Positions 22,111 to 37,864 of a stretch of DNA of 37,864 nucleotides are shown piece after piece. Under the pieces are notes generated by a model. The model searched no databases. It saw nothing but the letters and a program-made list of their open reading frames with translations, and was not told the DNA's origin. Within the stretch, counting starts at the first letter, position 1. Each line of letters begins with the position of its first letter. The DNA is from Bacillota bacterium (lineage in GTDB: Bacteria; Bacillota; Sulfobacillia; Sulfobacillales; JAIMBI01), in assembly GCA_021846505.1 (NCBI GenBank), contig JAJZWV010000039.1, forward strand, positions 1-37,864, given 5' to 3'. The position numbers and the translations under genes are program-made.

Positions 22111-22139
22111 CGATATCCGTGGAGGCACACGCGGGTGCG

Positions 22140-22148
22140 TGCTACAAT
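22140..22148 (+). promoter_or_regulatory. Extended -10 promoter before the DUF2079 gene
   Basis: TGC-TACAAT gives an extended -10 element with five of six bases matching TATAAT at 22143-22148. No good -35 box precedes it, which extended -10 promoters tolerate. It lies 115 bases before the ATG at 22264, in the only sizeable gap of the plus arm, so the DUF2079 and ABC exporter genes may be transcribed separately from the upstream GT genes. Confidence 0.45.
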
Positions 22149-22263
22149 CGGCACGCATCGACGGGATTCACCTAACCGCGTCCGCGCGCGACAGTACGCC
22201 TGCGCGGCCGCCATCGGCCCGCGGTCTGGGAGCCCGTGAGTCCAAGCGAGGGGGAGGCAGCGC

Positions 22264-23586: not shown

Positions 23587-23587
23587 C

Positions 23588-24412
23588 ATGGCTGTCGCGC
23601 AGGTGGGGGAGCGGCTGACGGTGCTGGAGCGGGTCCTGCCGCACGACCTCCTCCGCTGGGTGGAGCTTATTCGGAACCTTGCGGTGCGCGACGTGGAGAC
23701 ACGCTACAAGCATTCGCTGCTGGGCTTGTACTGGACGCTGATCAACCCGCTGGTCACCGCCCTGATTTTCTCGTTTGTGTTTCAGGACATCTTTCATGCC
23801 ACGTCCAAGCCCATCCCGTACGTGGTGTTTCTGCTGTCCGGGCTCACCTTTTGGAACTTCTTCAACAACGGGGTGTACTCGGCCACCTCAAGCGTCACCG
23901 GCAATGCCCAGCTGCTGGCCAAGCTGTATTTTCCGCGGGTGGTGCTGCCCACGGCCGCGGTGCTGGCCCGCCTGATTGACTTTGCGTTTGGCCTGGTGAT
24001 TCTCCTGGTGTTTTTCGCCCTCTACCGGGTGCCGCTCCACTGGGCGGGCTTCATCCTGATTGCCCCCATCCTGCTGCTGCAAGTCGTGTTCACCATGGGC
24101 ATCGCGTTTATCACCTCGGCCCTGAACGTGCTGTACAGGGACATGAGCCAGCTGATTGGCCTCTTGCTGATGGTGTGGATGTACATGTCCCCCGTCATGT
24201 TTCACCCGTCCAGCGCTCCGGCCGAGCTTCGCCTGGTGTTTTACATCAACCCCATCGGCGCGATGATTTCGGCCGAGAAGGATCTGCTGTTCACCGGCCA
24301 GGTGACACATCCCCTGTATCTTTGGTTTGCGGTGCTGTGGACCTTTTTGGTTTACGCCGCCGGCTTGCGATTGTTCAAGCGCATTGAGCCGCTGTTCGCG
24401 GAGGTGATGTGA
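23588..24412 (+). CDS. ABC-2 type polysaccharide export permease (Wzm/TagG-like)
   Basis: A 274-residue permease with six membrane helices. The family-typical N-terminal amphipathic part is LAVRDVETRYKHSLLGLYWTLINPL (charged cytosolic helix, about 31-55). SFVFQDIF, PYVVFLLSGLTFWNFF and the C-terminal MYMSPVMF then FYINPIGAMI are also present. These are hallmarks of Wzm, KpsM and TagG subunits, which move lipid-linked polysaccharide across the cytoplasmic membrane. The ATG at 23588 follows the DUF2079 stop by one base, with a GAGAGGGGG site upstream. Its stop overlaps the ATPase start as TGATG, so the two subunits are made in equal amounts. The substrate is presumably the glycan built by this locus. 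Confidence 0.93.
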   Translation: MAVAQVGERLTVLERVLPHDLLRWVELIRNLAVRDVETRYKHSLLGLYWTLINPLVTALIFSFVFQDIFHATSKPIPYVVFLLSGLTFWNFFNNGVYSATSSVTGNAQLLAKLYFPRVVLPTAAVLARLIDFAFGLVILLVFFALYRVPLHWAGFILIAPILLLQVVFTMGIAFITSALNVLYRDMSQLIGLLLMVWMYMSPVMFHPSSAPAELRLVFYINPIGAMISAEKDLLFTGQVTHPLYLWFAVLWTFLVYAAGLRLFKRIEPLFAEVM

Positions 24413-25215
24413 TGGACACCGCGGTCACCTGCGAGCACGTCTCCAAGCGCTTTCAGCTCAAGAAAGATCGGGCCGACAGCGTGGGCCAGCTGCTGTACCG
24501 CATGATTCCCTTCCGCCGCGGCCAGCGCGCCACCACGGAGCCGTTCTGGGCGCTCCGCGACGTGTCGTTCGAGCTGAAGTTCGGGGAGAGCCTCGGCATC
24601 ATTGGACACAATGGCGCAGGCAAAAGCACCCTCCTAAAAATTTTGACTCGCACCATGTACCCGACCCAGGGGTCGCTGGCGATGCGCGGCAAGGTGTCGG
24701 CCCTCATCGAGCTGGGGGCGGGGTTCCACCCCGACTTCACGGGGCGGGAAAACATTTACCTCAACGCCTCCATCTTGGGGCTGACGCGGCGAGAGATCGC
24801 GGGCAAGATTCCTGAGATTGTCGAGTTCTCGGAACTGGAGGACTTTATCGACACGCCCGTCAAGTACTACTCATCGGGGATGAACGCACGGCTGGGGTTT
24901 GCCGTGGCCACCTCCGTCCGGCCCGAGATTCTCATCGTGGACGAGGTGCTGGCGGTCGGCGACGAGGGCTTCCAGAAGAAGTGCATGGAGAAGATCCTGT
25001 CCATCAAGCAGGAAGGCGTGAGCATCCTCCTGGTGTCGCACGCGCTCAACACCATCGCCAACTTGATGGATCACGCGCTGTGGATTGAACATGGCGAGGT
25101 GCAGCGCTACGGGGACCCCCAAGAAGTGGTCAAAGCTTACCGCGCCGCTGAGGCCCAGGGCGAAACCACCATTGAGGCCGACCTGCGAAAGGTGCTGGCA
25201 TCCGACCGCCGCTAG
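24412..25215 (+). CDS. Polysaccharide ABC exporter ATPase (Wzt/TagH-like, short form)
   Basis: A 267-residue ATP-binding subunit. The Walker A is GHNGAGKS (65-72), the family-specific ALIELGAGFHPDFTGREN lies at 97-114, the signature SSGM is at 154-157, the Walker B ILIVDEV is at 173-179, and the switch His210 is in LVSHALN. It stops soon after the ATPase core and lacks the C-terminal carbohydrate-binding domain of longer Wzt proteins, so it resembles KpsT and short TagH forms. The ATG at 24412 overlaps the permease stop (TGATG) with GGAGG seven bases upstream; a GTG three bases earlier is less likely. It is the last gene of the plus arm, followed by a hairpin at 25238-25260. Confidence 0.92.
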   Translation: MDTAVTCEHVSKRFQLKKDRADSVGQLLYRMIPFRRGQRATTEPFWALRDVSFELKFGESLGIIGHNGAGKSTLLKILTRTMYPTQGSLAMRGKVSALIELGAGFHPDFTGRENIYLNASILGLTRREIAGKIPEIVEFSELEDFIDTPVKYYSSGMNARLGFAVATSVRPEILIVDEVLAVGDEGFQKKCMEKILSIKQEGVSILLVSHALNTIANLMDHALWIEHGEVQRYGDPQEVVKAYRAAEAQGETTIEADLRKVLASDRR

Positions 25216-25237
25216 CCATAGGGTCTGACCGGCGCTA

Positions 25238-25260
25238 GGCCGCCAGAAATGGTGGCGGCC
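25238..25260 (+). terminator. Hairpin after the polysaccharide export genes
   Basis: GGCCGCCA (25238-25245) and TGGCGGCC (25253-25260) form a perfect 8-bp, almost all-GC stem with a 7-base loop, starting 22 bases after the ATPase stop. No U tract follows, only a pyrimidine-rich stretch. Confidence 0.5.
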
Positions 25261-25379
25261 ATCCTCTCCGATGGCGCATCCGCACGAGATTCAAGAGTTG
25301 GCGCTTTTGGGCTCCGTGCTCCGGAACAACTGCCGGCTGGAGAGCGATGTCAACTGCTGGTCATGTTTCACCCGGCGGG

Positions 25380-25690
25380 TCCGGTCGGGGACCTCCCCTG
25401 CACCGCGACATCCACCGGCTTCCGCCATCGATCCGGTGGCACAGCGCGACGGTGGCCGGCTGCGGGGGCACAGGCGGCAGTACAAGCTCGCCCGGCTGAC
25501 CGACAAGAGGTCCGCCGGCTCCGCAAACAGGGCGGGGAGCCGGTCGGCCACCTCCCGCCGCCACCGATGGAGTAGCCGCAGCGCAATCTGATGCGCGCCC
25601 GCTCGGTCACCGGGCGGGCTTCTTGGAGCTCTCGAGCACAACCTGGACCTTCAAGGCCGGGACATAACATTTCCTGATCTAGTGTCATTT
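25380..25690 (-). pseudogene. Decayed IS3-family transposase (OrfA plus start of OrfB)
   Basis: Fragments of an IS3-type transposase are spread over different minus-strand frames. Near 25665-25620 the frame reads ALKVQVVLESSKKPAR, like the N-terminus of OrfA. After a frame change, AHQIALRLLHRWRREVADRL and PALFA follow (about 25600-25530), the OrfA helix-turn-helix end. Then comes LLSVSRASLYCR, which after another shift continues as PVPPQPATVALCHRID, the start of OrfB. The catalytic DDE part is absent. At least three frameshifts or stops and a deletion joining OrfA to OrfB show it is long dead. The assignment rests on these motif stretches only. Confidence 0.6.
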
Positions 25691-25703
25691 GGTGTCATCT
25701 ATT

Positions 25704-25738
25704 GACAGGGTACCACGACAGGGACTTCCGGCCCTGTC
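25704..25738. repeat. GACAGGG repeat and hairpin at the fossil IS edge
   Basis: GACAGGG occurs at 25704-25710 and again at 25717-25723, and the second copy pairs with CCCTGTC at 25732-25738 to give a 7-bp stem with an 8-base loop. It lies just outside the OrfA remnant, so it may be what is left of the element's terminal repeat, or a terminator for flanking genes. The rest of 25261-25801 outside the fossil shows no gene. Confidence 0.35.
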
Positions 25739-25801
25739 TAAATTCCTGGGTCCACTATCGACGCATGAATGGCGGTCATACCGGCGGGATAAACCTGTCT
25801 T

Positions 25802-26503
25802 TCAGGCACGGGGGGCGGTGATCTGACCCTTTTTGACCGCGACGGCGAGGAGCACTAATCCTCCCGCCCAGCGCCGCACCGCATGCACCGCAAGGTTCGC
25901 CTCCATGGCCGTGAGCAACTGCTGGTCGGTCGCAAAGCCGCTCAGCGACAAGTAGATTTGGCGGTAAGCGCCCAGTCCCGGCAGTCGCGTCACCAGTCGG
26001 ACATAGAAGCGGCTGAGTCGCCCGAAAAGCGACCGGGGGTGCACGAGATCCAGCAGCACCAAACTTCCGCCGGGCTTCAGCACCCGAATCATCTCGCGAA
26101 GCCCGCGGCGCCAATCCTCCATGTTGCGCAGCGAGAACTGAGCGGTCACCCAGTCAAAGGAGGCATCCGCAAACGGCAAGGCCTGTCCGTCGCCTTTCAT
26201 CCAGTGAATCGCGGCATGAGACGCAGTGCGGCTGTGCTGTTGGGCCACCTCCAGCATCGCGGAGGAAGCGTCCAGCCCGACGAAGGTTCCTCGACCATCC
26301 ATACGCTCCGCGCACTCGCGCAAGACAACCCCCGTCCCGCATCCGACGTCCAGCACGTTGTCGCCTGGCGCGATGTGCAGCACCGCGATTGCCGCATGGT
26401 GCCATGCTCGGATCCCACCCACCGAAAGGCCCGCGCTCTCCCAGTCATAGGCGGCCGCGATTCCATCAAAGACGGACCGGCGGGCCCGGTCGGCCGTGTT
26501 CAT
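25802..26503 (-). CDS. UbiE/MenG-type quinone methyltransferase
   Basis: A 233-residue SAM-dependent methyltransferase. The SAM motif I is VLDVGCGTG (50-58), followed by FVGLDASSAMLEVA, GDGQALPFADASFDWV and RVLKPGGSLVLLDL, the order seen in UbiE/MenG and related type 11 enzymes. Members carry out C-methylation of demethylmenaquinone or related quinones, and the neighbour is a quinone-linked succinate dehydrogenase operon. The ATG at 26503 follows GAAGGAGG at eight bases, and a TTG six codons earlier is less likely. It lies 105 bases downstream of the iron-sulfur subunit gene on the same strand. Some UbiE-like proteins methylate other substrates, so the menaquinone role is probable, not certain. 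Confidence 0.78.
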   Translation of the reverse strand: MNTADRARRSVFDGIAAAYDWESAGLSVGGIRAWHHAAIAVLHIAPGDNVLDVGCGTGVVLRECAERMDGRGTFVGLDASSAMLEVAQQHSRTASHAAIHWMKGDGQALPFADASFDWVTAQFSLRNMEDWRRGLREMIRVLKPGGSLVLLDLVHPRSLFGRLSRFYVRLVTRLPGLGAYRQIYLSLSGFATDQQLLTAMEANLAVHAVRRWAGGLVLLAVAVKKGQITAPRA

Positions 26504-26608
26504 CCTCCGAGCCTCCTTCAACTGGCCGTGGGATGGGTCTAGACCCGGTCGGGCCCGCTGCCGCTGGCCCCGCTCGGCGGCGTGGCTCTCTTAGCGATGA
26601 CCCGACCG

Positions 26609-27379
26609 CTACGGGGACGTCGGCTGGGGCCGCCTCAGCCGGCGGAGCCAGGCGGCAATCGGATCGTAATGCTGGTCCGCGACTCGTTCCTTCAGCGGGA
26701 TAATGGCATCATGGGTGATCTCAATGCCCTCGGGACAGACGTCCGTGCAGCAGTGCGTCACGTTGCAAAGTCCCACGCCGGCCGCGCTATGAAGCAAGTC
26801 GGTGCGCGACGCGGTGTCCATCGGATGCATTTCCAGCTCGGCGATCCGCACCATCAGCTGGGGACCCCAATACTGCCCAAACAGGCCGTGTTCGCGCAAG
26901 ACGTGACAGACATCTTGGCACAAGAAGCACTCAATACACCGATGGAATTCTTCAACGCGGTCCACCTCCCACTGCTGCAAGTGAAACGGAGGGGGTTCCG
27001 CCGGACGAAAGCCGGGCACGAGCTCTTCCGCTCGCTCATAATTCCAGGACACATCGGACACGAGGTCACGAATGATAGGAAAAGTGCGGAGCGGATGCAC
27101 ATGAATGTCCAGGGACCCATATGCATCGAGGCGCGTTTTGCAGAACAAGCGCGGTTCCCCATTGATCTCGCCCGAGCACGACCCGCAGTGGGCCGCTTTG
27201 CAGTTCCAGCGCACGGCCAGGTCGGGAGCTTCGTGCGCCTGAATGAAGTGCAAGGCATCAAGCACCACCATTCCGGGCACCACCGGCACGCGATAGGCCA
27301 CCTCTTCACCCTGATAGTCATCGCCGCGATAAACATAGAGAACCCGTTCCTTCCCCGGAACGGCACTCCGCTCCATCAT
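26609..27379 (-). CDS. sdhB: Succinate dehydrogenase/fumarate reductase iron-sulfur subunit
   Basis: A 256-residue electron-transfer subunit. The [2Fe-2S] ligands are Cys60, Cys65, Cys68 and Cys80 in a plant-ferredoxin-like domain (NCKAAHCGSCSG). The ferredoxin-like C-terminal domain has Cys148, 151, 154 and 158 (CIECFLCQDVC) and a second cluster with Cys205, 210/211 and 215 before Pro (CNVTHCCTDVCPEG), for the [4Fe-4S] and [3Fe-4S] centres. It carries electrons from the flavoprotein to the membrane subunit. ATG at 27379 overlaps the sdhA stop as ATGA, with GGAGGG seven bases upstream; a second ATG follows directly. The overall pattern resembles the actinobacterial Sdh1-type enzyme more than the classical SdhB. 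The direction (succinate oxidation or fumarate reduction) cannot be told. Confidence 0.92.
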   Translation of the reverse strand: MMERSAVPGKERVLYVYRGDDYQGEEVAYRVPVVPGMVVLDALHFIQAHEAPDLAVRWNCKAAHCGSCSGEINGEPRLFCKTRLDAYGSLDIHVHPLRTFPIIRDLVSDVSWNYERAEELVPGFRPAEPPPFHLQQWEVDRVEEFHRCIECFLCQDVCHVLREHGLFGQYWGPQLMVRIAELEMHPMDTASRTDLLHSAAGVGLCNVTHCCTDVCPEGIEITHDAIIPLKERVADQHYDPIAAWLRRLRRPQPTSP

Positions 27380-29139
27380 GATGGTGCCCTCCCTGTCACA
27401 TCTTGAGTGAGCGGGGCCAACACGCGCTGCTGCTGGGGCGTCACGGCAGCCACCGGCACGGTGCGGAGGCTGGGGCTTCCCCCGCGATCCCGCGTGATCA
27501 CTACGTTCTGCTTTCCCCAGGCCGCATCTTCCTCGGGAAAGTCCGTCCGGTAGTGCGCCCCGCGGCTTTCTGTTCGCTCCAGCGCGCTCCGCAGGATGGC
27601 CTCCCCCAACAGCAGCATGGCATCCAGCTCCAGTGCCAAGTTCCACCCGGGGTTGTACAGCGTCCCGCCTGGCGCGGCGAGCCGTGCCGCCCGCTCCTGC
27701 ATCTCCAACACCTGCTGCAGCCCGTTCTGCAGGCCGGGTCCACTCCGGACAATGCCGCCGCACCGCGTCATCACCTCCTGGAGCGCACTGTGCAGCCCAT
27801 AGGGACTTGGGCCCAGCGGCTGCCGCAGGGGCGCGAGCACGCGCGCGACTTCCTCTTCAATCTCGCTGGCCGCCACCACCGGCAGATGGACAGACGCCGC
27901 GGCAAATCGCGCCGCCGCGTCGCCCGCCCGCTTGCCAAACACAAGCAGATCCGCCAGGGAATTGCCACCCAGCCGATTGGCCCCATGCAGGCCGGCCGCC
28001 ACTTCACCGGCGGCAAACAAACCGGGCACCCGCGTGGCGCAGGTGTCCGGGTCGACCCGCACGCCCCCCATCATGTAGTGGCAGGTTGGAGCCACCTCCA
28101 TGGCTTCACGCGTGATGTCCACATCGGCCAAGGCGAGAAACTGGGCGCGCATGCTGGGCAGCTTGCGGCTGATGAACGCCGCGCCGCGGGCGGTAATGTC
28201 GAGACGCGCCCCGCCGTGCGGCGTCCCGCGCCCGGCCTGCACTTCCTGGTAGATGGCGCGCGCGACAACATCCCGGGACGACAATTCCATTCGCTTGGGG
28301 TCATAATCCGCCATAAACCGCCGCCCTTGGGCGTTGAGCAAAATCCCGCCTTCGCCCCGCACGCCTTCGGTGACCAAGAGACCGCGAACACCCGGCGGCC
28401 ACACCATGCCGGTGGGATGGAATTGGACCATCTCCATATCCATCAAATCGGCCCCGGCGGCAAACGCCAGGGCGGTGCCATCGCCGGTGCTCTCCCACGA
28501 ATTGGATGTCACGGCGTAAACGCGCCCCCACCCCCCGGTTGCCAGTACAATGGCCGGGGCGCGAAGCAAGACAAACCGCCCATCGACCCGCCGGTAAGCG
28601 AGCGCCCCCGCCATCCCGCTGTCGTCACGGAACAGCCGGGTGACAATCACCTCAGGGTAAAACGCTACGCCCAACTGGGTCACCCGATTTTGGAGCGTGC
28701 GCAGCAGCTCTTTGCCCGTGTGGTCGCCGACATGGCACAGACGGCGGTAGGAATGGGCGCCAAACGCCCGTTGAAGGATCTGGCCCGCGGGCGTGCGGTC
28801 AAACACGGCCCCCCACCTCTCCAATTCCCACACGCGCTCGGGCGCCTCCGCCGTCAGCAGCTCCGCCATGCGCGCGCTGTTGACGAAGTGCCCGCTCTTC
28901 ATGGTGTCGCGAAAGTGAACGTCCGGGCTGTCTTCGGCGTCGAGATGCCCCAGCGCCGCAGCCACGCCGCCCTCCGCCATGACGGTGTGCGCTTTGCCCA
29001 GCAGGCTCTTGCTCACCACGCCCACGGACAGCCCAACCTCCGAGACGGCCACGGCTGCCCGCAGGCCCGCGCCGCCAGCCCCGATCACCAGCACGTCGTG
29101 CCGCAGGGTCTCCCACGCCTGCCCGCCGGCGGCAGTCAT
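27376..29139 (-). CDS. sdhA: Succinate dehydrogenase/fumarate reductase flavoprotein subunit
   Basis: A 587-residue flavoprotein. The FAD Rossmann motif is VLVIGAGGAGLRAA (16-29). His51 in LGKAHTVMAEGG fits the covalent FAD-histidyl position. Substrate-site segments include FHPTGM (typical quinone-linked SDH/FRD sequence), HYMMGGVRVD, and GLFAAGEVAAGLHGANRLGGNSLADLLVFG near residues 385-415. It oxidises succinate to fumarate or the reverse. ATG at 29139 overlaps the stop of the membrane-subunit gene as ATGA, and the open frame upstream of it is the antiphase shadow of that gene. At 587 residues it is of normal length. It works as a complex with the products of the genes on either side. Confidence 0.94.
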   Translation of the reverse strand: MTAAGGQAWETLRHDVLVIGAGGAGLRAAVAVSEVGLSVGVVSKSLLGKAHTVMAEGGVAAALGHLDAEDSPDVHFRDTMKSGHFVNSARMAELLTAEAPERVWELERWGAVFDRTPAGQILQRAFGAHSYRRLCHVGDHTGKELLRTLQNRVTQLGVAFYPEVIVTRLFRDDSGMAGALAYRRVDGRFVLLRAPAIVLATGGWGRVYAVTSNSWESTGDGTALAFAAGADLMDMEMVQFHPTGMVWPPGVRGLLVTEGVRGEGGILLNAQGRRFMADYDPKRMELSSRDVVARAIYQEVQAGRGTPHGGARLDITARGAAFISRKLPSMRAQFLALADVDITREAMEVAPTCHYMMGGVRVDPDTCATRVPGLFAAGEVAAGLHGANRLGGNSLADLLVFGKRAGDAAARFAAASVHLPVVAASEIEEEVARVLAPLRQPLGPSPYGLHSALQEVMTRCGGIVRSGPGLQNGLQQVLEMQERAARLAAPGGTLYNPGWNLALELDAMLLLGEAILRSALERTESRGAHYRTDFPEEDAAWGKQNVVITRDRGGSPSLRTVPVAAVTPQQQRVLAPLTQDVTGRAPS

Positions 29140-29903
29140 TTGAGCAGCCTCACATCGGGAATGATGTGGGCCAGCAGGAGGCGAATATAGACGTCGGTGG
29201 CCCACACACTCATCATCGACGCCCACGCCCAACGGCCATGATGGCGATTCCACCGGGAGATGCGCTGCCACCATCGGAATCGGACCGGAGGGCGCACAGC
29301 CTCGATGCCGCGCGGGCAGGCGAAGCAGTCGCGGCTCCCACCGATGAGGTGTCGAAACGCGTGGCACGACAACGTGTAGGCGGTCAGCAGGACGACGTTC
29401 CCGAGCATAATGACGGACCCGACCCCTACACCGAACTGGCCCTGAAAGATGAAGGCCGACACCGTGTCTTTCCACAGAAAGAGCAACACGATGGCGGCCA
29501 AGTACCACCAGTAGCGATGCCAGTTGCTCACCACCCAGGGCCATGCCCGCTCTCCCGTGTATGCCCGTTCCGGCCGCTCGGGTGCGCCGCACGTAAAGGG
29601 GTCGGCGGCGAATGCATGATAGTATTCCCTCCGATAGTAGTAGCAGGTCCCCCTGAACAGCAGCGGAATCCACGCCACCAGCACGGCCGGCGCGAAGGGA
29701 ATGCCGAGCCACTGCCCCAGCGGAGGGGAGAAAAATGGCGAGAGGTAGTTATGGTATTGGCCTGTCCGTTCGAACACCACCACCCCGAAGGAATACAGGA
29801 CAAACGCCGAGAACACGACCAGTGTGGTGACGGACTGCGCCCACGGCGGCCAGTACCGCGTAGGGCTTGCGGTCGCCGATGCGGCCCGCACTGAGGATGG
29901 CAT
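29136..29903 (-). CDS. sdhC: Succinate dehydrogenase membrane anchor, Sdh1-type (five-helix)
   Basis: A 255-residue membrane protein with about five helices (25-45, 68-86, 130-150, 160-182, 228-248). Candidate heme or quinone-site histidines are His129 in SNWHRYWWY and His181/His185 in SCHAFRHL. The segments TCYYYRREYYHAF and WHRYWWYLAAIVLLFLWKD resemble the single-chain anchors of actinobacterial Sdh1-type complexes rather than classical SdhC/SdhD. A pair of cysteines in RDCFACPRG is unusual. The ATG at 29903 follows GGAGGAGGGGGAG. First gene of the sdhC-sdhA-sdhB-(ubiE) group, with a 510-base region upstream. The family call is from these motifs and operon position. Confidence 0.85.
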   Translation of the reverse strand: MPSSVRAASATASPTRYWPPWAQSVTTLVVFSAFVLYSFGVVVFERTGQYHNYLSPFFSPPLGQWLGIPFAPAVLVAWIPLLFRGTCYYYRREYYHAFAADPFTCGAPERPERAYTGERAWPWVVSNWHRYWWYLAAIVLLFLWKDTVSAFIFQGQFGVGVGSVIMLGNVVLLTAYTLSCHAFRHLIGGSRDCFACPRGIEAVRPPVRFRWWQRISRWNRHHGRWAWASMMSVWATDVYIRLLLAHIIPDVRLLK

Positions 29904-30413
29904 TGATGCTCCCCCTCCTCCAAATCGGCAGCGAACAGATCGAGAACCACGTGCTGCCCTGCCATGGACGCTGCATGCAGCCGATAACCGTCGATGCCTC
30001 ATCTCCACCGCATACGTGGCGGTGGTCGTGCGACCAGTCAGCCAGCGGGCGCAGGCAAGTTTCTCTACACACATGAGCGTAGCCCACCCCTGTTTTTGCC
30101 GCGACGGGCAGTTGGGCAGACTTTTGGGGCATTCTGGTGAGCTGCCCCTACGCCGTTTGGGTCATCGCACCAGGGTCGCGCCATCGTCTCGCTGGCGGCT
30201 AATGCCGCGTTCACGGTGACCGTGTGGTGCCGAAGATAGCGCTCCCTGAGCCTTGTTGAATAGGAAACCTGTTCATACTCTTAAGTGGGAGTTCACCGAG
30301 TCGGTGATGTCTGACACCGTGCGTTGACTGGGGGATTGTTCGCGGACGAAAGACGAACAAAAGGTGGTCCATTGTGCAGTTCCAGACGCTAGGACAAGGG
30401 GAGGACATACACG
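29904..30413. other. Divergent intergenic region between sdhC and the sulfur module
   Basis: This 510-base gap has no convincing gene. It holds several inverted repeats: CCACCGC/GCGGTGG at 30005-30011 and 30019-30025, GGTCG/CGACC at 30024-30035, CACGGT-G-ACCGTG at 30212-30224, and TCACCGA-G-TCGGTGA at 30293-30307. A weak plus-strand promoter candidate is TTGTTG (30253-30258) with CATACT (30274-30279), spacing 15. No clear minus-strand promoter for sdhC was found. The first two repeats would lie in the sdhC leader. Confidence 0.45.
30293..30307. promoter_or_regulatory. Perfect 15-base palindrome upstream of the sulfur module, candidate operator
   Basis: TCACCGA and TCGGTGA are exact inverse complements around a single G. 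The site lies 107 bases before the DsrE2 ATG and just downstream of a weak promoter candidate ending at 30279, the place a repressor site would be expected. A smaller perfect palindrome, CACGGT-G-ACCGTG, lies about 80 bases upstream (30212-30224). Confidence 0.4.
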
Positions 30414-30794
30414 ATGAATCTCATCCTGCTGTCAGGCGACTACGCTAAGATTCACGCGGCCGCAATGTTGGCGGTGGTGGCCTCCAGCTTGGACATGCCA
30501 GTGAATGTGTTCGTGTCGATGGAGGCGTTGCCTGCGTTTCACGGCGATCCAGCGATTCGGGCGACCGTCGGCATGGGTCAGGTTGGCCACAAGTTGAAGG
30601 ATTCAGGCGGGGACGACTACCTGGGTCTTCTGGACCAAGCCAAAAGCTTTGGAACGGTCACCGTATACGCCTGCAGTCTGGTGGCGGACCTCTACGGGTG
30701 GACGCTGGAGGATTTGGTGCCGACCTTTGACGACATGATGGGCGTCGCCGGGTTTCTCGGCAAGGCATCCACCGGGACCACCATCGCCCTGTAG
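30414..30794 (+). CDS. DsrE2-like sulfur carrier protein
   Basis: A 126-residue DsrE/DsrF-like protein. The N-terminal strand is MNLILLSGDY, with PVNVFVSMEAL after the first helix. The single cysteine, Cys87 in VTVYACSLVADLYGW, is the conserved persulfide-carrying position of the DsrE2/DsrE3 group. The C-terminal GVAGFLGKAS helix fits the family. These proteins bind sulfane sulfur and pass it to or from TusA in the cytoplasm. The ATG follows GGGGAGG at nine bases. It is first in a four-gene set with TusA, a sulfide:quinone oxidoreductase-like protein and DUF1641, so it probably belongs to a sulfur-oxidation relay. No transmembrane segment is apparent, unlike some DsrE2 proteins. Confidence 0.85.
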   Translation: MNLILLSGDYAKIHAAAMLAVVASSLDMPVNVFVSMEALPAFHGDPAIRATVGMGQVGHKLKDSGGDDYLGLLDQAKSFGTVTVYACSLVADLYGWTLEDLVPTFDDMMGVAGFLGKASTGTTIAL

Positions 30795-30812
30795 TACCGG
30801 ACAGTGCACGCA

Positions 30813-30842
30813 GCCTGCCGGGCGCAGTGACGGCCGGCAGGC
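30813..30842 (+). repeat. Perfect 9-bp hairpin between dsrE2-like and tusA genes
   Basis: GCCTGCCGG (30813-30821) and CCGGCAGGC (30834-30842) form a perfect stem with a 12-base loop. It starts 18 bases after the DsrE2 stop and ends 32 bases before the TusA ATG. It could stabilise the upstream message or tune the ratio of the two proteins by partial termination. No U tract follows. Confidence 0.45.
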
Positions 30843-30874
30843 AAGCGGGCATCCACAAGCGAAGGGAGCTGCGG

Positions 30875-31105
30875 ATGGACACGGCAAAAATCGTGGATGC
30901 GCGGGGTTCTTATTGCCCCGGCCCCTTGATGGAGCTGATCAAAGGCATCCGCCGGGAGGCCATCGGCACGACGCTGGAAATATGGTCGTCGGATCGTGGG
31001 TCAGCCAAAGACATCCCGGAGTGGGCCGCTCGGGCTGGCCATGAGTTGGTGAGCAGCACGGAGGAGGACGGCATCTACAAGATCCAGGTGCGAAAAGCCC
31101 GGTAG
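30875..31105 (+). CDS. tusA: TusA-family sulfur carrier protein
   Basis: A 76-residue SirA/TusA-fold protein. The active-site motif is Cys14-Pro-Gly-Pro-Leu in RGSYCPGPLMELIK, and the rest (TLEIWSSDRGSAKDIPEWAARAGHELV) matches the two-layer alpha/beta fold. TusA carries persulfide sulfur to acceptors such as DsrE proteins or heterodisulfide-reductase-like complexes. In this setting it likely serves sulfur oxidation rather than tRNA thiolation, because it is between DsrE2 and a sulfide:quinone oxidoreductase. The ATG at 30875 has GAAGGGAG upstream; an in-frame ATG at 30827 overlaps the hairpin and is unlikely. Confidence 0.92.
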   Translation: MDTAKIVDARGSYCPGPLMELIKGIRREAIGTTLEIWSSDRGSAKDIPEWAARAGHELVSSTEEDGIYKIQVRKAR

Positions 31106-31155
31106 CGGCCGTCCAAACCGGTTTAGCGCAAACGCTGAGCAGAGGAGACGCACGA

Positions 31156-32295
31156 ATGAAGCGAGTGGTCATTCTAGGTGGCGGAACCGGGGGCACCATC
31201 GTCGCCAACCAGATGGTGCGTCAACTCCGCCAGGATATTGATGCCGGCGCGGTTGAGATCACGGTGGTTTCCAACACGGAGCAGCATGTTTACCAACCCT
31301 CCTTCCTGTATGTGGCGTTTGATCTAACGGCCCCGTCGGACGCCAAGCGTCCCGAGCGTCAGGTCTTGGACCGCCGGATTCGGCTTGTCCAGGGGGAAGC
31401 GGACCGCGTGGACCCCAGAGAACACGCGGTGGTCATGTCAGACGGCGTGCAACTTCCATACGACTTCTTGGTGATTGCGACGGGCAGCCGTCCCGCTCCC
31501 GAGGAAATCGAGGGATTGGCTGAAGGGGGCCATCACTTCTACACGGAGGAAGGGGCGCTTAAGCTGCGTGAGGCTCTCCAATCCTTCACCGGAGGACGAG
31601 TGGTCCTCGTGGTCGGCGTTCCCCACAAGTGTCCGGTCGCTCCCTTGGAATTCACGCTGATGTTACATGATTGGCTGGCCGCACGAGGATTGGGGCCGTC
31701 CAGCCAGATCGTGTACACCTATCCGATCGGCCGCCCCCATTCACTTGAAGGCGTGTCGGATTGGGTCAAGCCGGTGTTTGAGGCCCGCGGCATTGACTCG
31801 CACATCTTCTTTAATCCCGAGCTCGTCGACCCCGTCGCCGGTACCGTCACCAGCCTCGAAGGTGAAACGCTGTCCTATGACCTTCTGGTCGCGGTTCCTC
31901 CGCATGTGGGACAAGAGGTGATTGCACGCTCGGGTCTGGGTGACAGCGGCAATTGGGTGCCCACCGACCGCCATTCGCTGCTCATGCAGGGAACCGACGA
32001 TGTTTACGTGCTGGGCGACGCCACGAACCTTCCCATCAGCAAAGCTGGCTCCACCGCCCATTTCCAAGCCGACGTGGTGGCGGGCAACATCGTCCAGCGC
32101 CTCCGTGGCGGACACGGATCGCTGCGCTACGATGGGAAGGTGTTCTGCTTTATCGAAACCAGTCTCAGGAAGGCCACCTACATCACGTTCGACTACCAGC
32201 GCCCGCCCCAGCCCGTCGTTTCTGGCTCGTTGCTTCACCTATACAAGTTAGCGTTTAACCACATGTACTGGCTGTCGGCGGCAGGCATTTTGTAG
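31156..32295 (+). CDS. Sulfide:quinone oxidoreductase-like FAD protein
   Basis: A 379-residue flavoprotein of the SQR/flavocytochrome c sulfide dehydrogenase family. FAD motif GGGTGGTIVA (8-17), second dinucleotide region VIATGSRP (106-113), FAD-binding VYVLGDATNLPISKAGS. The only two cysteines are Cys159 in GVPHKCPVAPLE and Cys331 in VFCFIET, at the two redox-disulfide positions of SQR. The C-terminal LYKLAFNHMYWLSAAG is the amphipathic membrane-docking part. It would oxidise sulfide or a carrier-bound persulfide and reduce the (mena)quinone pool. ATG at 31156 follows AGAGGAGA. Neighbours DsrE2, TusA and DUF1641 suggest the sulfur product is handed to protein carriers. Related non-SQR oxidoreductases exist, so activity is probable, not proved. 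Confidence 0.88.
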   Translation: MKRVVILGGGTGGTIVANQMVRQLRQDIDAGAVEITVVSNTEQHVYQPSFLYVAFDLTAPSDAKRPERQVLDRRIRLVQGEADRVDPREHAVVMSDGVQLPYDFLVIATGSRPAPEEIEGLAEGGHHFYTEEGALKLREALQSFTGGRVVLVVGVPHKCPVAPLEFTLMLHDWLAARGLGPSSQIVYTYPIGRPHSLEGVSDWVKPVFEARGIDSHIFFNPELVDPVAGTVTSLEGETLSYDLLVAVPPHVGQEVIARSGLGDSGNWVPTDRHSLLMQGTDDVYVLGDATNLPISKAGSTAHFQADVVAGNIVQRLRGGHGSLRYDGKVFCFIETSLRKATYITFDYQRPPQPVVSGSLLHLYKLAFNHMYWLSAAGIL

Positions 32296-32309
32296 AGAGA
32301 AGGGCACGC

Positions 32310-33074
32310 GTGGCAACAGTGCAGGTGCCGCAGGAGGTTTTGCGGGAGTGGGCGCAAGCCCTCAGCGCGGTGAGGGCGCAAGTACCGCCGCCCATGGCCC
32401 AGCAGGTGGCGTCCATCGTCACTGTCCTGACGGCATGGGCAAGTGGGCAGGAGTCGGCGGGCACAGCCCCCATGGAGGCGAACCCCGTCCCCGCCCTCAC
32501 GCCAGCGACCGCTGCAGCACCGCTCGAGGCAGCGGCGTCAGCGCTAACCGCCGAATTATCGAGCGTGGCGTCCGCCGTCGCCGACAGCGTGACGCCCGCG
32601 CTGGTGGAGCGTGTGACGGCGCTGCTCACGGAATTCGGCGTCATCGGCAGCCGCCTCGCCTCGCCCGCTGGACTGGGTTTGGTGGAGAGCGTCGCCGACC
32701 AGGCCCAGGAGCTGACCCAGCTGCTTCGCCAAATGTTGGCCTGGCAAGCGAATGGAACATGGGTATTGGTGGAAAACACCGTTGCCCTCGTCAAGGCGCT
32801 GCAAGACTCCGTCAGCCCCGCGCTGGCAGAGCGCGTCATAGACTTTCTGGTGCCCGTAGTGGGGTCGCTGAGCCAAATGGATTCGGCCGGCATGCTGGAA
32901 GCGGCCGTGCGCCTTGCCGAGGCGGCTCCCGACAGTCTGGCGCACGCCCGCGAGGATCGCCGCCGCCTAACGGTCGTTGCCCTCTTGCGCGAGGTACAAA
33001 ACCCTGAAGTCCAGCTGGGCATCAAGACCCTGCTGCAGATGCTGCGCCGACTTCCCTACGCCATTGAGGGCTGA
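32310..33074 (+). CDS. DUF1641 family protein
   Basis: A 254-residue protein. The C-terminal half matches the DUF1641 pattern, with a repeated Leu/Val-rich amphipathic helix layout (VALVKALQDSVSPALAERV, MLEAAVRLAE, then EVQNPEVQLGIKTLLQMLRRLP). DUF1641 genes commonly sit beside formate dehydrogenase or SQR-like genes. The N-terminal part (about 1-90) is an Ala/Pro/Val-rich linker with no clear fold. The start is GTG at 32310, with AGAAGGG seven to ten bases upstream, 14 bases after the SQR stop, so it is co-translated. It is largely helical and soluble or membrane-associated. A role as a scaffold linking SQR to the carriers is inference. Confidence 0.78.
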   Translation: MATVQVPQEVLREWAQALSAVRAQVPPPMAQQVASIVTVLTAWASGQESAGTAPMEANPVPALTPATAAAPLEAAASALTAELSSVASAVADSVTPALVERVTALLTEFGVIGSRLASPAGLGLVESVADQAQELTQLLRQMLAWQANGTWVLVENTVALVKALQDSVSPALAERVIDFLVPVVGSLSQMDSAGMLEAAVRLAEAAPDSLAHAREDRRRLTVVALLREVQNPEVQLGIKTLLQMLRRLPYAIEG

Positions 33075-33107
33075 CGAGTCGGCGCTTCTCCAACAGGGCC
33101 AGACTCG
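33075..33107 (+). terminator. Weak hairpin after DUF1641
   Basis: CGAGTC (33075-33080) pairs with GACTCG (33102-33107), with a 21-base loop, followed by AGTTTCCC. The stem is short, so the terminator call is tentative. It starts directly after the DUF1641 stop codon. Confidence 0.25.
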
Positions 33108-33169
33108 AGTTTCCCTGGCAGCGGCCGCACGGCCCCGCCAGTGATAGCTAGATCGTGCTATAGACGACT

Positions 33170-34200
33170 CCGCGATGCTGGCCGCCTTAGCGGCCGCGCT
33201 GGATTCCACCCGGGGCCGCCCGTCCCTCCGCGTGGCCCAAGACCTCCGGCTGTTCTATGTGCAGCACGGCTATCAGCTGTCCGACCGGGTGCTCGTGGAG
33301 GAGGTCGCGGATAGCTTTCCCCGGCAGCGGTCTTGCCAGCTGGGGGTGACCAACCTGGTGCCGCATCCCACCACTGGCCCTGTGGTCGCACCGCCGCGGG
33401 CCGGCGGGGATCGCGGCCGCGAATGCGGCCGTCACGCACCGCCTCCAGGGCGAGAAGGTGCTCCAGGGTCGGCGTTGCCGGATCAACTCGACGGTGACGG
33501 ATGCCACCATCCACCGTCCGACGGACTCCGGGCTCCTGGCCGATGGCATCCGCCGGCTCACACGGATGCCCCGCCCGGCGCCGGCGGCATTCCTGGTGCC
33601 CGGTCCGCTGCCCCGGGACCCTGCACGGGCTCAAAAATGCCCGGACCCTGGCCCGCAGGAAACAGCTGTGGCGCCGGGCGGGCGAGGCAGTCTCCGCGGT
33701 GCTCCGCCAGACGCCGCAACGCCTGACGTCGGCCCGGGATCCGTTGGCCACCGTCATCGCCCAAAGTCGGGGCGCCGCGGCCGATGAGCGGATCCCGGAC
33801 CGGGTCGTGAGCTGCGTGGACCCCGGCGCGCGGCCCATTGAAACAGGGAAGCTGGGGCAGCCGGTGCCATTCGTCTACAGCGTGCCGGCGGGGCAGGCCG
33901 CAGACAGCTTTCTGACCGGGTACACGGTGGAGGAGGCTCCCCGGGGATGTCGAGGCCCCTGATCCCCGCCCTCGATCCGCATCGCGCGCCGTTTGGGCAA
34001 GATCCCACTCTCGTGGCGACGGGCCGGGCTGTGACAGTGCGGCGAGCCAACACGTCTGTCGGGATCGGCCGATTCGCACCGTGGCGACCCGAAGCGCGGG
34101 AACCAATCCGCCGCACGAATGCCACCCCGCCTTCCGGCGAGCATCCACTCTCACTGTGGGTGCGCCCCGCCCCGAGAGTGCAAGCGGGCGGGCGGGGCGG
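33170..34200 (+). pseudogene. Decayed ISNCY-like transposase
   Basis: Plus-strand fragments of one transposase are split over three frames. An N-terminal part resembles a DUF772-type domain (about 33175-33370, VLVEEVADSFPRQRSC). A segment GRRCRINSTVTDATIHRPTD (about 33465-33525) matches the DDE-family Thr-Val-x-x-Thr-x-Ile-His-x-Pro-Thr-Asp motif. Then comes RKQLWRRAGEAVSAVLRQTPQR and PDRVVSCVDPGARPIETGKL (about 33650-33860), typical of ISNCY-type enzymes. DPHRAPFGQDPTLVAT (about 33968-34017) resembles the final catalytic region. At least two frameshifts and a missing segment make it dead. The remnant ends near 34200, at a GC-rich inverted repeat. Confidence 0.65.
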
Positions 34201-35043
34201 ATAGCCGCCGGTGTCAAATAACCGGTTGGCCTCGCCGTACGGGATGGCGCCCTCGCCCATGCCACCAAAGGTGCCGCGCGTTTTCCACTCAAGTGCCAGG
34301 TGCGCGAGGAGTCCCATCACCGCCCGCACCGGGCCCGAGCCCGTGCTGATACGCGCCACCCCCAGCGCCGCCAGCCGCGAGGCGTCCGACTGGGGCCCCG
34401 CCAGCACATTGAGCGGCCCCGCTAGCCCTAAGGCCAGCGCGCGGACGGTGAATTCGTCCTCAGTGCCGGGCACAAACACGCCGTCGGCGCCGGCCGCCAG
34501 ATAGGCCGCGCCGCGGCGCACAGCGTGATCCAGGCGCGTGGCCGACGGCCCCACTTCGTGCCAGTACACGTCGGTGCGGGCGTTCAGGAACAGGGGAACC
34601 CCCGCGCCGTCGGCGGCGGCGCGGCAGGCGGCCAGGCGCGCCACCTGGCGCTCGAGGGGCACCAGCTGCCCATCCCGCCAATCCTCCAGGTTTATGCCCA
34701 CTATGCCCGCTGCCACGGCCTGGCGCACCAGGTCCGCCACCCCCGACGGTTCGTCGGCGTACCCCGCTTCCAGGTCCGCCGTCACCGGGACCGCGATCGC
34801 GCGCACGATGCGCGCCAATCCGCTCAGCAGCTCGGGTGCCGGCAGGCGCTCGCCATCGGGGAAACCCGCCTGAAAGGCCATGCCCGCACTGGTGGTACCG
34901 ATCGCGGGAAAGCCCGCCGCCTCAAACACGCGGGCTGACATGGCATCCCAGGCATTGGGCAGCACCAGCGGCCGCCCCGCCTGGTGCAGCACCTTAAATT
35001 GGCTCGCCCGCTCGCTCTGACTCATCGCCTTCATCGCCTTCAT
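33754..35043 (-). CDS. PEP mutase/isocitrate lyase family protein with runaway C-terminus
   Basis: The first 276 residues are a normal phosphoenolpyruvate mutase/isocitrate lyase-family protein. VLPNAWDAMSARVFEAAGF (27-45), VPVTADLEAGYAD (85-97, metal-binding Asp/Glu), GINLEDWRDG (116-125) and LNARTDVYW (153-161) are present, ending near YGEANRLF (269-276), where relatives stop. The frame then continues about 153 codons through low-complexity Pro/Arg/Gly sequence antisense to the fossil transposase. The original stop was probably removed by insertion at about 34200-34215. The family cleaves or rearranges small oxoacids; activity may survive the tail. Start: three in-frame ATGs at 35043, 35034 and 35025 in a repeated GGCGATGAA run. 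The 35043 ATG is best placed after AAGGTGATC, and overlaps nothing. It follows the alpha/beta hydrolase stop by eight bases. Confidence 0.78.
   Translation of the reverse strand: MKAMKAMSQSERASQFKVLHQAGRPLVLPNAWDAMSARVFEAAGFPAIGTTSAGMAFQAGFPDGERLPAPELLSGLARIVRAIAVPVTADLEAGYADEPSGVADLVRQAVAAGIVGINLEDWRDGQLVPLERQVARLAACRAAADGAGVPLFLNARTDVYWHEVGPSATRLDHAVRRGAAYLAAGADGVFVPGTEDEFTVRALALGLAGPLNVLAGPQSDASRLAALGVARISTGSGPVRAVMGLLAHLALEWKTRGTFGGMGEGAIPYGEANRLFDTGGYPPRPPACTLGAGRTHSESGCSPEGGVAFVRRIGSRASGRHGANRPIPTDVLARRTVTARPVATRVGSCPNGARCGSRAGIRGLDIPGEPPPPCTRSESCLRPAPPARCRRMAPAAPASLFQWAARRGPRSSRPGPGSAHRPRRPDFGR
34163..34199. repeat. GC-rich 10-bp inverted repeat at the end of the fossil transposon
   Basis: CGCCCCGCCC (34163-34172) and GGGCGGGGCG (34190-34199) are exact inverse complements around a 17-base centre. 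It sits at the junction between the decayed transposase and the PEP-mutase coding domain. It may be a remnant of a terminal repeat or a terminator for the transposase side. Confidence 0.35.
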
Positions 35044-35051
35044 CGCCTTGA

Positions 35052-36026
35052 TCACCTTCTCTCCGATCCCGCCGCCAGGAAGCTTGACGCCTGCCGCCAC
35101 AGCCGGCCGCGCCCGGACTCCAGATGCATCACATGCGTGCCGCGGGACAGCGTGACTTGGTCCACAGAGGCTGCACCCGCCAAGGCCTCCGCCAGCCAGC
35201 CCACATCACGGTGCGTGGCCTGGGTGTCCCAGGCTCCCCGGATGAGGAGCACCGGCGCCCGCACCCCGGCCGGGTCATACGGAAAGTGCCCCGCGTGCGC
35301 GTCGGCGATATCCGCGAAGGGGCCCGCGGGCACCCGCACGGTGGGCGGCACGCGATCGCCACTGGCGGAGTCCGCCGCCAGGTAGGCCGCAGCCCACGGC
35401 TCAAAGGCGTCCCGGCTGAAGACAGGGGCCTCGCCCGCCGGCACCTCCGCCTGAAACCGGTCCCACTGCTGCTGGGCCGAAATATCCCGGGTGGGTGGCA
35501 GCGCGCCGGGGGCGCCGGCCCTCTCGCGCCGGGTGATGGGGCCAAACAGCACCAGCCGCGCCACACGCTCGGGCCAGTGGCTCGCAAGGCGCCCAGCCAC
35601 CAAGGTGCCCCACGAGTGCGCCAAGAGTCCCACCCGAGCCACGCCGGCCTCGTTTCGCACCGCGTCCACCACCGCCGCCAGCTGCGCCGCCGCGGCGCCC
35701 ACACGGCCAACAGGCTCGCTGGCGGCAGGCCACCGCGACGACGCGCCATAGCCGAGGAAATCAAAGCTGTACGCGTCCAAGCCCGCTGAGGCTAAGTTTT
35801 GCATCCAGGACCCGGCCTCTTTCCCCCTCTCGCTGCTCGGTACCGGGTCTACAGCGCGGCCGAAGTCCCACCCCACTGAAAGCGCCGTCGGGAAGGTAGC
35901 CCCGTGGACGTACACCACCGGCAGGCCGCGGCCCGCCCGGTGAAACAGCGCCACGCGGCCCTGCGGCATTTCCACCCAGCGCTCCGGCTCTATCACTGCA
36001 CGGGACTGGCTGCCAGGGACGCTCAT
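35052..36026 (-). CDS. Alpha/beta hydrolase
   Basis: A 324-residue alpha/beta hydrolase-fold enzyme. The oxyanion-hole strand is VVYVHGATF (37-45), the nucleophile elbow is LLAHSWGTL with Ser138, and the catalytic acid is Asp267 in IRGAWDTQ. The base is His298 in SRGTHVMHLE. The lid region is about 165-250. No signal peptide is visible, so it is probably cytosolic. Start: ATG at 36026, with GAGGTGA seven bases upstream; the ATG at 36032 lies directly on that site. It is followed at once by the PEP mutase-family gene, so the two form an operon. It diverges from the ArsR-type gene over 54 bases, which suggests regulation by that protein. The substrate cannot be told. Confidence 0.87.
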   Translation of the reverse strand: MSVPGSQSRAVIEPERWVEMPQGRVALFHRAGRGLPVVYVHGATFPTALSVGWDFGRAVDPVPSSERGKEAGSWMQNLASAGLDAYSFDFLGYGASSRWPAASEPVGRVGAAAAQLAAVVDAVRNEAGVARVGLLAHSWGTLVAGRLASHWPERVARLVLFGPITRRERAGAPGALPPTRDISAQQQWDRFQAEVPAGEAPVFSRDAFEPWAAAYLAADSASGDRVPPTVRVPAGPFADIADAHAGHFPYDPAGVRAPVLLIRGAWDTQATHRDVGWLAEALAGAASVDQVTLSRGTHVMHLESGRGRLWRQASSFLAAGSERR

Positions 36027-36080
36027 GCTCATCACCTCAGAACGAGATTACTGCCGTGTCGTTTGTGGCATCATCGAAAT

Positions 36081-36824
36081 ATGGACAGCATCGAAGAAGC
36101 TCGCCCAGGGCGAGCCATGGGCGCGGTGGACCGCGCCACCCCCAGTATTGCCCGCGCCGCGTCCGCCATGGGCGACCCCACCCGCGCCGCCATGCTGCTG
36201 GCTTCGATGGGCGGCCCGCGCTCTGCCGGCCAGCTGGCGGCCTCCGCCGCCGTAAGTGCCTCCACCGCCAGCAGCCATCTTAGGCGCCTCGGCGAGGCGC
36301 ATCTCGTGGAGGTGACTGCCCACGGGCGCCAGCGATACTATGCGCTGGCCGGCCCCAGCGTGGCCGCTGCGCTCGAAGCACTGGGGCACCTGTCGCCGCC
36401 AGCGCCGATTCGCTCGCTGGCCGCATCCAGCCGAGGAGCGGCGCTGCGGCGTGCCCGCACCTGCTACGACCACTTGGCGGGCAAGGCCGGCGTGTGGCTG
36501 CTGGATGCCCTCCTGGAGCAGGGGTGGCTGGCACGGGCCGGCGGCGGCAACTTCGACCTGACGGCGGTCGGCATCGCAAGGCTGGCCGCGTGGAGTGCGC
36601 CCTGGCCGCCCGTCGCCCCGAGTCGGCGCCGCCTGGCGTTCGCCTGCCCCGATTGGTCCGAAGAGCGGCCGCACCTGGCGGGCGCGCTGGGCGCGGCCAT
36701 CACCCGCCACCTGCTGCAGCTGGGCTGGATGATGCCCGACCCAGGCCAGCGCACGGTCCGACTGTCCGCCGCCGGCCGTGATGGCCTGACCCGTCTCTTG
36801 GGCGTGGCGCCCCCCGATTCCTGA
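36081..36824 (+). CDS. ArsR-family winged-helix regulator with extended C-terminus
   Basis: A 247-residue regulator. The N-terminal wHTH (about 25-90) contains AASAMGDPTRAAMLLASM, then SAGQLAASAAVSASTASSHLRRL as the recognition helix (49-70), and the wing VTAHGRQRYYAL. Cys/His metal motifs of ArsR/SmtB sensors are not seen. The C-terminal half has CYDHLAGKAGVWLLDALLEQGWL, typical of a helical subgroup of ArsR proteins of unknown ligand. It diverges from the hydrolase/PEP-mutase operon, so it probably controls both directions. No Shine-Dalgarno-like sequence precedes the ATG at 36081, so it may be translated from a leaderless or very short-leader message. An internal ATG at 36117 is an alternative with only weak upstream signal. 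Confidence 0.82.
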   Translation: MDSIEEARPGRAMGAVDRATPSIARAASAMGDPTRAAMLLASMGGPRSAGQLAASAAVSASTASSHLRRLGEAHLVEVTAHGRQRYYALAGPSVAAALEALGHLSPPAPIRSLAASSRGAALRRARTCYDHLAGKAGVWLLDALLEQGWLARAGGGNFDLTAVGIARLAAWSAPWPPVAPSRRRLAFACPDWSEERPHLAGALGAAITRHLLQLGWMMPDPGQRTVRLSAAGRDGLTRLLGVAPPDS

Positions 36825-37009: not shown

Positions 37010-37864
37010 ATGGAGCTGCTGAAGCCGACGGTGGATCTGGCGTTTCACCGCATGTTGAGCCAAGCCGGGAACGAGCCCGTGTTGCTTGACTTGCTGAATG
37101 CAGTGTTGGTGTCATCCGGCGATCGGCCCGCCACGGGCGTCACGGTCATGAACCCGCGCATTGAGCCGCGCACGGCGACTGACAGAGCCGCGGTGCTGGA
37201 CGTGCGGGCCACGCTGGCCGACGGGCGATCTGCCAACGTTGAGATGCAAGTGGTGAATCAGGGCGACTGGGCCGCGCGAAGCCTATACTATTGGGCCCGG
37301 CTGTTTGCCGACCAGCTGACGACCGCCATGCCGTACCGCCAGCTCACCCCCACGATCTCGGTAGGGGTGCTGAGCTTTCGCCTGTGGCCCGGCGGACCCT
37401 TTCACCACACGTTTCGTCTTCGCGCGGACCATGACCCGGCTATGGTCTGGAGCGATCACCTCGCGCTGCATACCGTGGAGCTGAAGAAGTTGCCTGAATC
37501 GTTTCGCCCCGAAGATGAAGAGTTGGTGCGGTGGATGAAGTTCCTGATGGATGGGCCGCCTGGCCAGAAGGAGGAGATCGCGATGGAATCGCCCGCGATT
37601 CAGCAGGCACTGACGACCCTGGAGACCTTAAGCTACGACCAGGAGTTCCGCGCCTTGTACGAGGCACGCGAAAAGGCGCAGCGCGACCTCATTTCCATGC
37701 GCGCCGACGGCCTGGAGGAGGGTCGCGCGGAAGGTCGGGAAGAGGGCCGTGCCGAAGGTCGGGAAGAGGGCCGTGCCGAAGGTCGGGAGGAGGGCCGTGC
37801 CGAAGGTCGGGAGGAGGGCCGTGCCGAAGGTCGGGAGGAGGGCCGTGCCGAAGGTCGGGAGGAG
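37010..37864 (+). CDS. Rpn-family PD-(D/E)XK nuclease (partial at right edge)
   Basis: The frame opens with ATG at 37010, with GGGAGG eight bases upstream, and is still open at the window end (285 codons seen). The N-terminus MELLKPTVDLAFHRMLSQ matches the Rpn/PD-(D/E)XK nuclease-transposase family. DVRATLADGRSANVEMQV (about 64-81) holds the Asp and the Glu-x-Gln nuclease core, and YYWARLFADQL follows. Rpn proteins such as RpnA are DNases that promote recA-independent recombination. After about residue 240 the protein is a run of an 8-residue unit rich in Gly, Arg and Glu (GREEGRAE), encoded by the tandem DNA repeat at 37730-37864. It is predicted to be a charged helical tail. Its true end lies outside the window. 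Confidence 0.85.
   Translation, partial: MELLKPTVDLAFHRMLSQAGNEPVLLDLLNAVLVSSGDRPATGVTVMNPRIEPRTATDRAAVLDVRATLADGRSANVEMQVVNQGDWAARSLYYWARLFADQLTTAMPYRQLTPTISVGVLSFRLWPGGPFHHTFRLRADHDPAMVWSDHLALHTVELKKLPESFRPEDEELVRWMKFLMDGPPGQKEEIAMESPAIQQALTTLETLSYDQEFRALYEAREKAQRDLISMRADGLEEGRAEGREEGRAEGREEGRAEGREEGRAEGREEGRAEGREEGRAEGREE
37730..37864 (+). repeat. 24-bp in-frame tandem repeat at the 3' end of the Rpn gene
   Basis: The unit GAAGGTCGGGA(A/G)GAG plus GGCCGTGCC (24 bases) is repeated five times with a further 15 bases at the edge. The first two copies have GAAGAG and the later four GAGGAG, so the copies are nearly identical and probably recent. Each unit adds eight codons without a shift, so copy-number change would lengthen or shorten the protein tail rather than switch the gene off. 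Confidence 0.92.

Follow-up and report, generated by a model that had tools for sequence, protein, structure and literature searches.

Introduction

C-terminal extension of a protein by stop loss is a kind of event that is already known, and it is an ordinary accident of genome evolution. In the accessible portion of their survey, Andreatta et al. (2015, PMC4494051) describe such extensions as short segments in Saccharomyces and Drosophila, and the accessible part of PMC4161906 cites stop-codon shifts in prokaryotes (Vakhrusheva et al. 2011) and counts overlapping convergent gene pairs. Here we compare with these systems a locus in which a bacterial enzyme runs far beyond its conserved end. 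The window, by which we mean the whole stretch of 37,864 nucleotides that was analysed, comes from a Bacillota genome (contig JAJZWV010000039.1; the genome is called G000 below), and its features are collected in Table 1.

The likeness to the cases in the accessible text of PMC4494051 lies in an old protein that appears to have gained non-coding C-terminal sequence through stop loss; the difference is that those extensions are short, whereas here, in a prokaryote, a block of about 9 kb would have removed the stop and given 153 codons lying mostly antisense to a dead transposase. In two relatives from the same genus (G001 and G002), the enzyme gene and a convergent ABC-transporter ATPase gene form an overlap of the sort counted in PMC4161906, as far as the accessible part of that paper goes, whereas in the window extra DNA parts the two genes and has affected them in opposite ways. 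The enzyme core resembles DFA0005 (PDB 2ze3) and other enzymes of its superfamily over its full length, residues 8-276 aligning with 2-273 of 275, but 2ze3 has no comparable tail. The dead transposase matches much of the transposase of ISNCY_1 elements (NF033593), for example that of an element in G017 with about 1637 bp between matching ends and terminal inverted repeats of about 24 bp. Unlike this element, the fossil is broken by several frame changes, carries an internal deletion, is unrecognisable in its C-terminal part and has no convincing terminal repeats.

Table 1. Coordinates of the features of the locus within the window
Feature	Position	Strand	Remarks
ABC transporter ATPase gene	24409..25215	plus	TAG end at the left edge of the block; 92-93% identical to congeners
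Block	25216..34215	none	About 9.0 kb; not present at this place in G001, G002 or G003; holds the transposase fossil; right edge uncertain by tens of bases
Left-edge repeat	25426..25758	minus	Three further contigs of G000 carry related copies
ISNCY-type transposase fossil	33116..34143	plus	Ends approximate, secure part about 33148-34120; tblastn, partial NCBIfam NF033593 matches, DNA similarity
Reading frame, PEP-mutase/isocitrate-lyase-type enzyme with tail	33754-35100 from GTG, or from ATG 35043	minus	35043 is the start in the first-pass annotation
Tail, read-through into the extra DNA	33754..34215	minus	153 codons and a TGA stop; computed pI 11.8; no Pfam match
Enzyme core, PEP mutase / isocitrate lyase superfamily	34216..35025	minus	270 codons, MSQSER to LF; PF13714, congener identity, 2ze3
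Alpha/beta hydrolase gene	35052..36035	minus	Lies next upstream of the enzyme gene, as it does in G001 and G002
ArsR-type regulator gene	36081..36824	plus	Divergent from the hydrolase-enzyme pair; same place in G001

The enzyme core and its tail

Matches to the enzyme were found in 42 of the 61 genomes searched. A separate search of genome contigs gave one locus, a Vibrio sequence that matches in part at 35% identity. In the window, the frame of 448 residues holds one Pfam domain, PEP_mutase (PF13714), at residues 35-269 (E=2.9e-79; 266.5 bits against a cut-off of 31.5, profile positions 1-236 of 240). Its scores for true phosphoenolpyruvate mutase (equivalog TIGR02320, 33.8 bits) and for methylisocitrate lyase (TIGR02317, 64.4 bits) lie below the respective cut-offs of 319.55 and 354.4, and going by these profiles ‘PEP mutase family’ is the name of a fold family here and not of that reaction. 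The nearest solved structure by sequence, 2ze3, aligns (E=6.9e-56) up to residue 276 as counted from 35043; the core ends at this residue, at the LF at 34216, and 153 codons lie beyond it. The first-pass annotation, made from the letters alone, had placed the end of the conserved protein near residue 276 with about 153 further codons, and the ends of the G001 and G002 orthologues bear this out. A single-sequence structure prediction was set aside, its pLDDT of 35.6 being too low to interpret. At the other end of the frame, nine-base repeat steps (KAMKAMKAM, window 35019-35048) give the start region more than one in-frame ATG.

The core is complete, with neither a frameshift nor an internal stop. 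Its dN/dS to G001 and G002 is 0.26-0.28; the hydrolase has 0.19 and the ArsR-type regulator 0.28, and within the G001-G002 pair the values are 0.157 for the enzyme and 0.379 for the hydrolase, all of these figures being rough because dS is near 1. With G019 as the outgroup, 18 changes are peculiar to G000 and 16 to G001, while identity to the outgroup is 45.7% and 46.5% and pN 0.418 and 0.399, respectively. By these comparisons the enzyme domain stays complete and constrained, with no clear acceleration; strong relaxation is not seen. Mild relaxation is possible, as the core has a higher dN/dS than the hydrolase, and a higher one than the same gene in the G001-G002 pair, and its sequence is slightly further from the outgroup.

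The tail has a GC content by codon position of 0.704/0.783/0.658, as against 0.758/0.534/0.848 in the core, and its 153 residues include 27 Arg and 24 Pro. An open run of at least 152 codons was reached in 13% of 2000 sequences with the composition of the fossil and in 14.9% of those with the composition of the window's right-hand 1500 bases, both sets being order-1 Markov sequences rather than exact shuffles, and in the six frames of the whole window, real genes included, such a run is present at 15141 of 74930 positions. With chance giving about 13-20%, there is nothing unusual in the tail being open; the real feature is the lost stop. Because its codon-position GC is of a non-coding type, its openness is at the level of chance and a Pfam search of it gave no match, the evidence points to non-coding DNA that was brought into frame. 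An arginine- and proline-rich segment of this kind would, if made, most likely be unfolded or trimmed; we infer that translation does run on into the tail and that the added segment is neutral.

An equally long tail in homologues, which would speak against an accident peculiar to this gene, was considered in the first-pass annotation. By a rough count, none of 29 homologue loci has a comparable tail (L003-L031; three of them close, most of them distant and some of them fragments), their frames ending between -47 and 60 residues beyond the core end; the count is only approximate at loci whose alignment broke off near residue 210, and it includes L015, L024, L027, L028 and L029, which appear to be fragments or broken frames. 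A GC-rich hairpin past the old gene end on the minus strand was dismissed as a candidate (z -1.64, with 13 of 200 shuffles folding equally well), and the one terminator-like site lies elsewhere, at 33642-33655, against an expectation of 0.7 such sites.

The uninterrupted state in relatives

The closest orthologues, those of G001 and G002, have 275 residues and are 66-67% identical to the window enzyme over 270 codons. They end ...EANDLFLRPD-stop, four residues past the LF, where the window reads ...EANRLFDTGGYPP... (LFDTGGYPP). In both genomes the enzyme stop overlaps the stop of the convergent ATPase gene: the listed frames overlap by 4 bp, CTAA, whose CTA gives the enzyme's TAG when read on the opposite strand and whose TAA is the stop of the ATPase, with two bases common to both. 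A comparison with uninterrupted homologues had been proposed at the outset, and these two orthologues support the claim that inserted DNA removed the native stop.

A third congener, G003, keeps no more than a piece of the enzyme gene next to its ATPase gene (52 bp, 82.7% identical to window 34307-34358, or 40 residues with an internal TAG); the hydrolase has no match in that genome, and the ArsR-type gene is absent from this place. Because of this state of G003, the cassette of these genes appears to be dispensable in the genus. At locus L078 (G003:C48, 5628-5866) the fragment is flanked by the ATPase gene on one side and an Rpn-family nuclease gene on the other. Further away, in G005 and G006, of the same family, both the block and the enzyme gene are missing next to the ATPase, and the genes that follow it there, read by eye, are glycosyltransferase genes; in G004, which represents a different genus within the family, a search at E 1e-60 gave no such ATPase.

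The block and its edges

In a blast comparison with one stretch of one G001 contig, the window is collinear at 18430-25214 (with small gaps), 34225-36758 and 37010-37688, and 25216-34215 has no match in that stretch; the G002 and G003 stretches likewise lack the block. At the left junction, identity with the congeners runs up to the shared stop, ...GACCGCCGCTA. At the right junction, good similarity resumes at about 34216 and about 13 bp of the sister sequence, the enzyme's last codons, are left out; a weak gapped alignment extends about 30 bp past this junction, so that the right edge is uncertain by that much. Between the two edges, a search for a target duplication gave only coincidences of 5-6 bases, and an inverted similarity of the edges was rejected (score 30, equalled by 78 of 300 shuffles).

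The left edge of the block (window 25216-25801) is a dispersed repeat with copies 67-86% identical on contigs 84, 54 and 19 of the same genome. HTH/transposase models match a related copy of it below the Pfam cut-offs and the piece in the window not at all; it is probably a mobile-element remnant and, at a guess, a relic of an IS3-type orfA.

The right edge is formed by the transposase fossil, which tblastn, with pieces linked in several frames, aligns with the ISNCY-type transposases of G017 and G034 (E 4e-61 and 2e-61). The frames change between 33148-33375, 33374-33637, 33642-33929 (33627-33929 for G034) and 33935 onward. Against the ISNCY_1 transposase, 200 of 366 aligned residues are identical, a figure that includes an untrusted last stretch: the protein alignments run nominally from 33148 to 34255, and their last stretch is gapped and crosses the junction into the enzyme gene. 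Similarity to ISNCY-type elements at the DNA level stops at about 34120, and for the last 94 bp before the junction the score observed against two elements was reached by 308 and 215 of 500 shuffles. The best single piece of the fossil scores only 45.5 bits with NF033593 (cut-off 325 bits), because the frame is broken; combined, the pieces align clearly. Both the tblastn pieces and the partial NF033593 matches confirm, for most of the tail, the earlier claim that it lies antisense to a transposase fossil.

With the terminal repeats of the G017 and G034 elements as queries, the best gapless match near the fossil is 16 of 24 bases at 33144-33145; for two of the three queries nothing in the window scores higher. 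It may be a terminal inverted repeat but was not taken as one, since the same bases align as transposase codons, and the search with these repeats found none at the right edge of the fossil. On the sequence evidence, the event is not one transposon hop: the block has mobile-element remnants at its right edge and probably at its left edge too. Of the transposon insertion put forward in the first-pass annotation, the fossil at the right edge stands and the extent does not, the extra DNA being a block of about 9 kb with no convincing terminal repeat at the junction.

Relatives of the fossil are found in G017, which has two ISNCY-type copies (L035 1284-2920 and L055 557-2193) that are 98.7% identical over about 1.64 kb. 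They have terminal inverted repeats of about 24 bp, and in one copy the transposase match is split over two frames.

Origin of the extension

We propose that in the genus ancestor the enzyme and ATPase genes were convergent, with stop codons sharing two bases, and that in the lineage of the window genome a block of about 9 kb, bearing sulfur-oxidation and fumarate-reductase-like genes with decayed mobile DNA at its edges, came to sit at the shared stop. Such a stop can stay with one partner only: the ATPase has a stop (TAG), and the enzyme would have lost its last few codons and its stop, its frame then reading 153 codons into the antisense side of a long-dead transposase gene until a chance TGA. 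The geometry of the shared stop explains why one gene has kept a stop and the other has not. We put the probability that the block stripped the enzyme of its stop in this way, and that the non-coding tail brought into frame is a tolerated accident, at about 80%. The block would then be the derived state, a gain here being simpler than a loss elsewhere because the enzyme end of the sister genomes has the normal length of the nearest solved relative. The reverse order, in which the genus ancestor already had the block, the other three congeners deleted it and acquired compact shared stops, and the enzyme was extended here by a separate local event at the transposon, seems to us improbable. Loss of the block in an ancestor of these three is conceivable because G000 seems by ATPase identity to be the outlier of the four, and relatives of the cargo do occur in other genera of the order; such a deletion, however, would have had to recreate an enzyme end of normal length together with overlapping stops, and 2ze3 (275 aa, matched to 273) also ends there.

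That the gene is decaying, with the stop loss as a first step towards the loss seen in G003, is compatible with the arrival of the block at the shared stop and is unlikely rather than far-fetched: G003 retains its fragment and no hydrolase match, and the dN/dS of the core somewhat exceeds the values for the hydrolase and for the G001-G002 pair. Against this, the core is complete, its dN/dS of about 0.27 is well under 1 and its peculiar changes are about as many as those of G001 (18 vs 16), while recent relaxation is not datable. Of the outcomes offered in the first-pass annotation, a tolerated accident fits best, given a non-coding-looking tail and a core that is not clearly accelerated; gene loss is seen in G003 and not here. 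The third of these outcomes, an incipient functional extension in which the basic tail has been recruited, for example for nucleic-acid or membrane binding or for an altered assembly of the enzyme, strikes us as very unlikely. The frame has stayed open and its product would be rich in arginine and proline and strongly basic, but its codon-position GC, its openness at the chance level, its lack of a Pfam match and the 29 loci lacking a comparable tail all speak against recruitment. We hold it to be just as improbable that the block was wrongly joined to the enzyme gene in assembly or that a base error hides a real stop. The assembly is a draft in 119 contigs, slipping by one base at the junction in one direction leaves only 20 codons before a stop, and the accessible text of PMC4494051 reports that one putative gene fusion in that survey of C-terminal extensions was traced to assembly errors. 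A slip in the other direction, however, leaves 218 codons open, and the 3' end of the sister type is missing instead of being shifted in frame, a difference for which one wrong base does not account. Moreover, the collinearity of both sides with one stretch of one G001 contig places the block between known neighbours, and the fossil DNA has one match in the genome, leaving no repeat to drive a misjoin there, although the left edge does have its related repeats.

The locus is a clear comparative example of mobile DNA lengthening a protein: the uninterrupted state is present in two relatives, the block is delimited, and a third relative represents loss. It is also a warning for annotation, as the last third of the predicted protein is not enzyme. 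It further suggests a simple, testable idea, namely that shared stop codons are sites sensitive to insertion. A wider speculation, which we regard as improbable, is that overlapping convergent stops are weak points at which mobile DNA regularly makes long C-terminal extensions, and that a few of these, that of the window included, may be retained as new segments. The thought arises because an insertion at overlapping stops must strip one partner of its stop, and because GC-rich frames stay open, which would make antisense transposase frames a ready source of tails. A literature search of limited extent found no paper on insertion at shared stops.

Cargo and neighbouring genes

Following the left-edge repeat, the block carries genes for a UbiE-type methyltransferase, for iron-sulfur and flavoprotein subunits of fumarate reductase/succinate dehydrogenase, for a 312-residue frame without a family match, for a DsrE-like protein and for TusA. 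There follow an oxidoreductase of the sulfide:quinone reductase (SQR) type, below the NCBIfam cut-off, and a 254-residue protein without a Pfam match, and the ISNCY-type fossil closes the block at its right edge. The 254-residue protein we tentatively assign, from its position, to DUF1641. The part at 30414-33074, in which the DsrE, TusA and SQR-type genes and a further gene stand in a row, resembles a sulfur-oxidation cassette. The same four-gene order is present in G012.

Three of the cargo proteins (SQR-type, FrdA-like and the 254-residue protein) were searched for in the congeners. For the SQR type there are distant relatives only, at 35% in G001 and as a trace in G002, with none in G003; the FrdA-like protein has relatives of about 41% only; and the 254-residue protein is matched in part in G002, at 30%, but not in G001 or G003. 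Part of the four-gene row recurs in G004, where DsrE, TusA and a portion of the SQR-type gene are about 81% identical.

On the other side of the enzyme gene, the link between regulator and enzyme may be older than the genus. At L095 (G019:C158, 3368-4916) a distant relative of the enzyme (45%) adjoins an ArsR-type gene, on a 5.8-kb contig that holds no relative of the hydrolase. At the contig end of the window (37010-37864) lies a gene for an Rpn-family nuclease/putative transposase with EGREEGRA-type repeats, relatives of which occupy the same place in G001 and G003.
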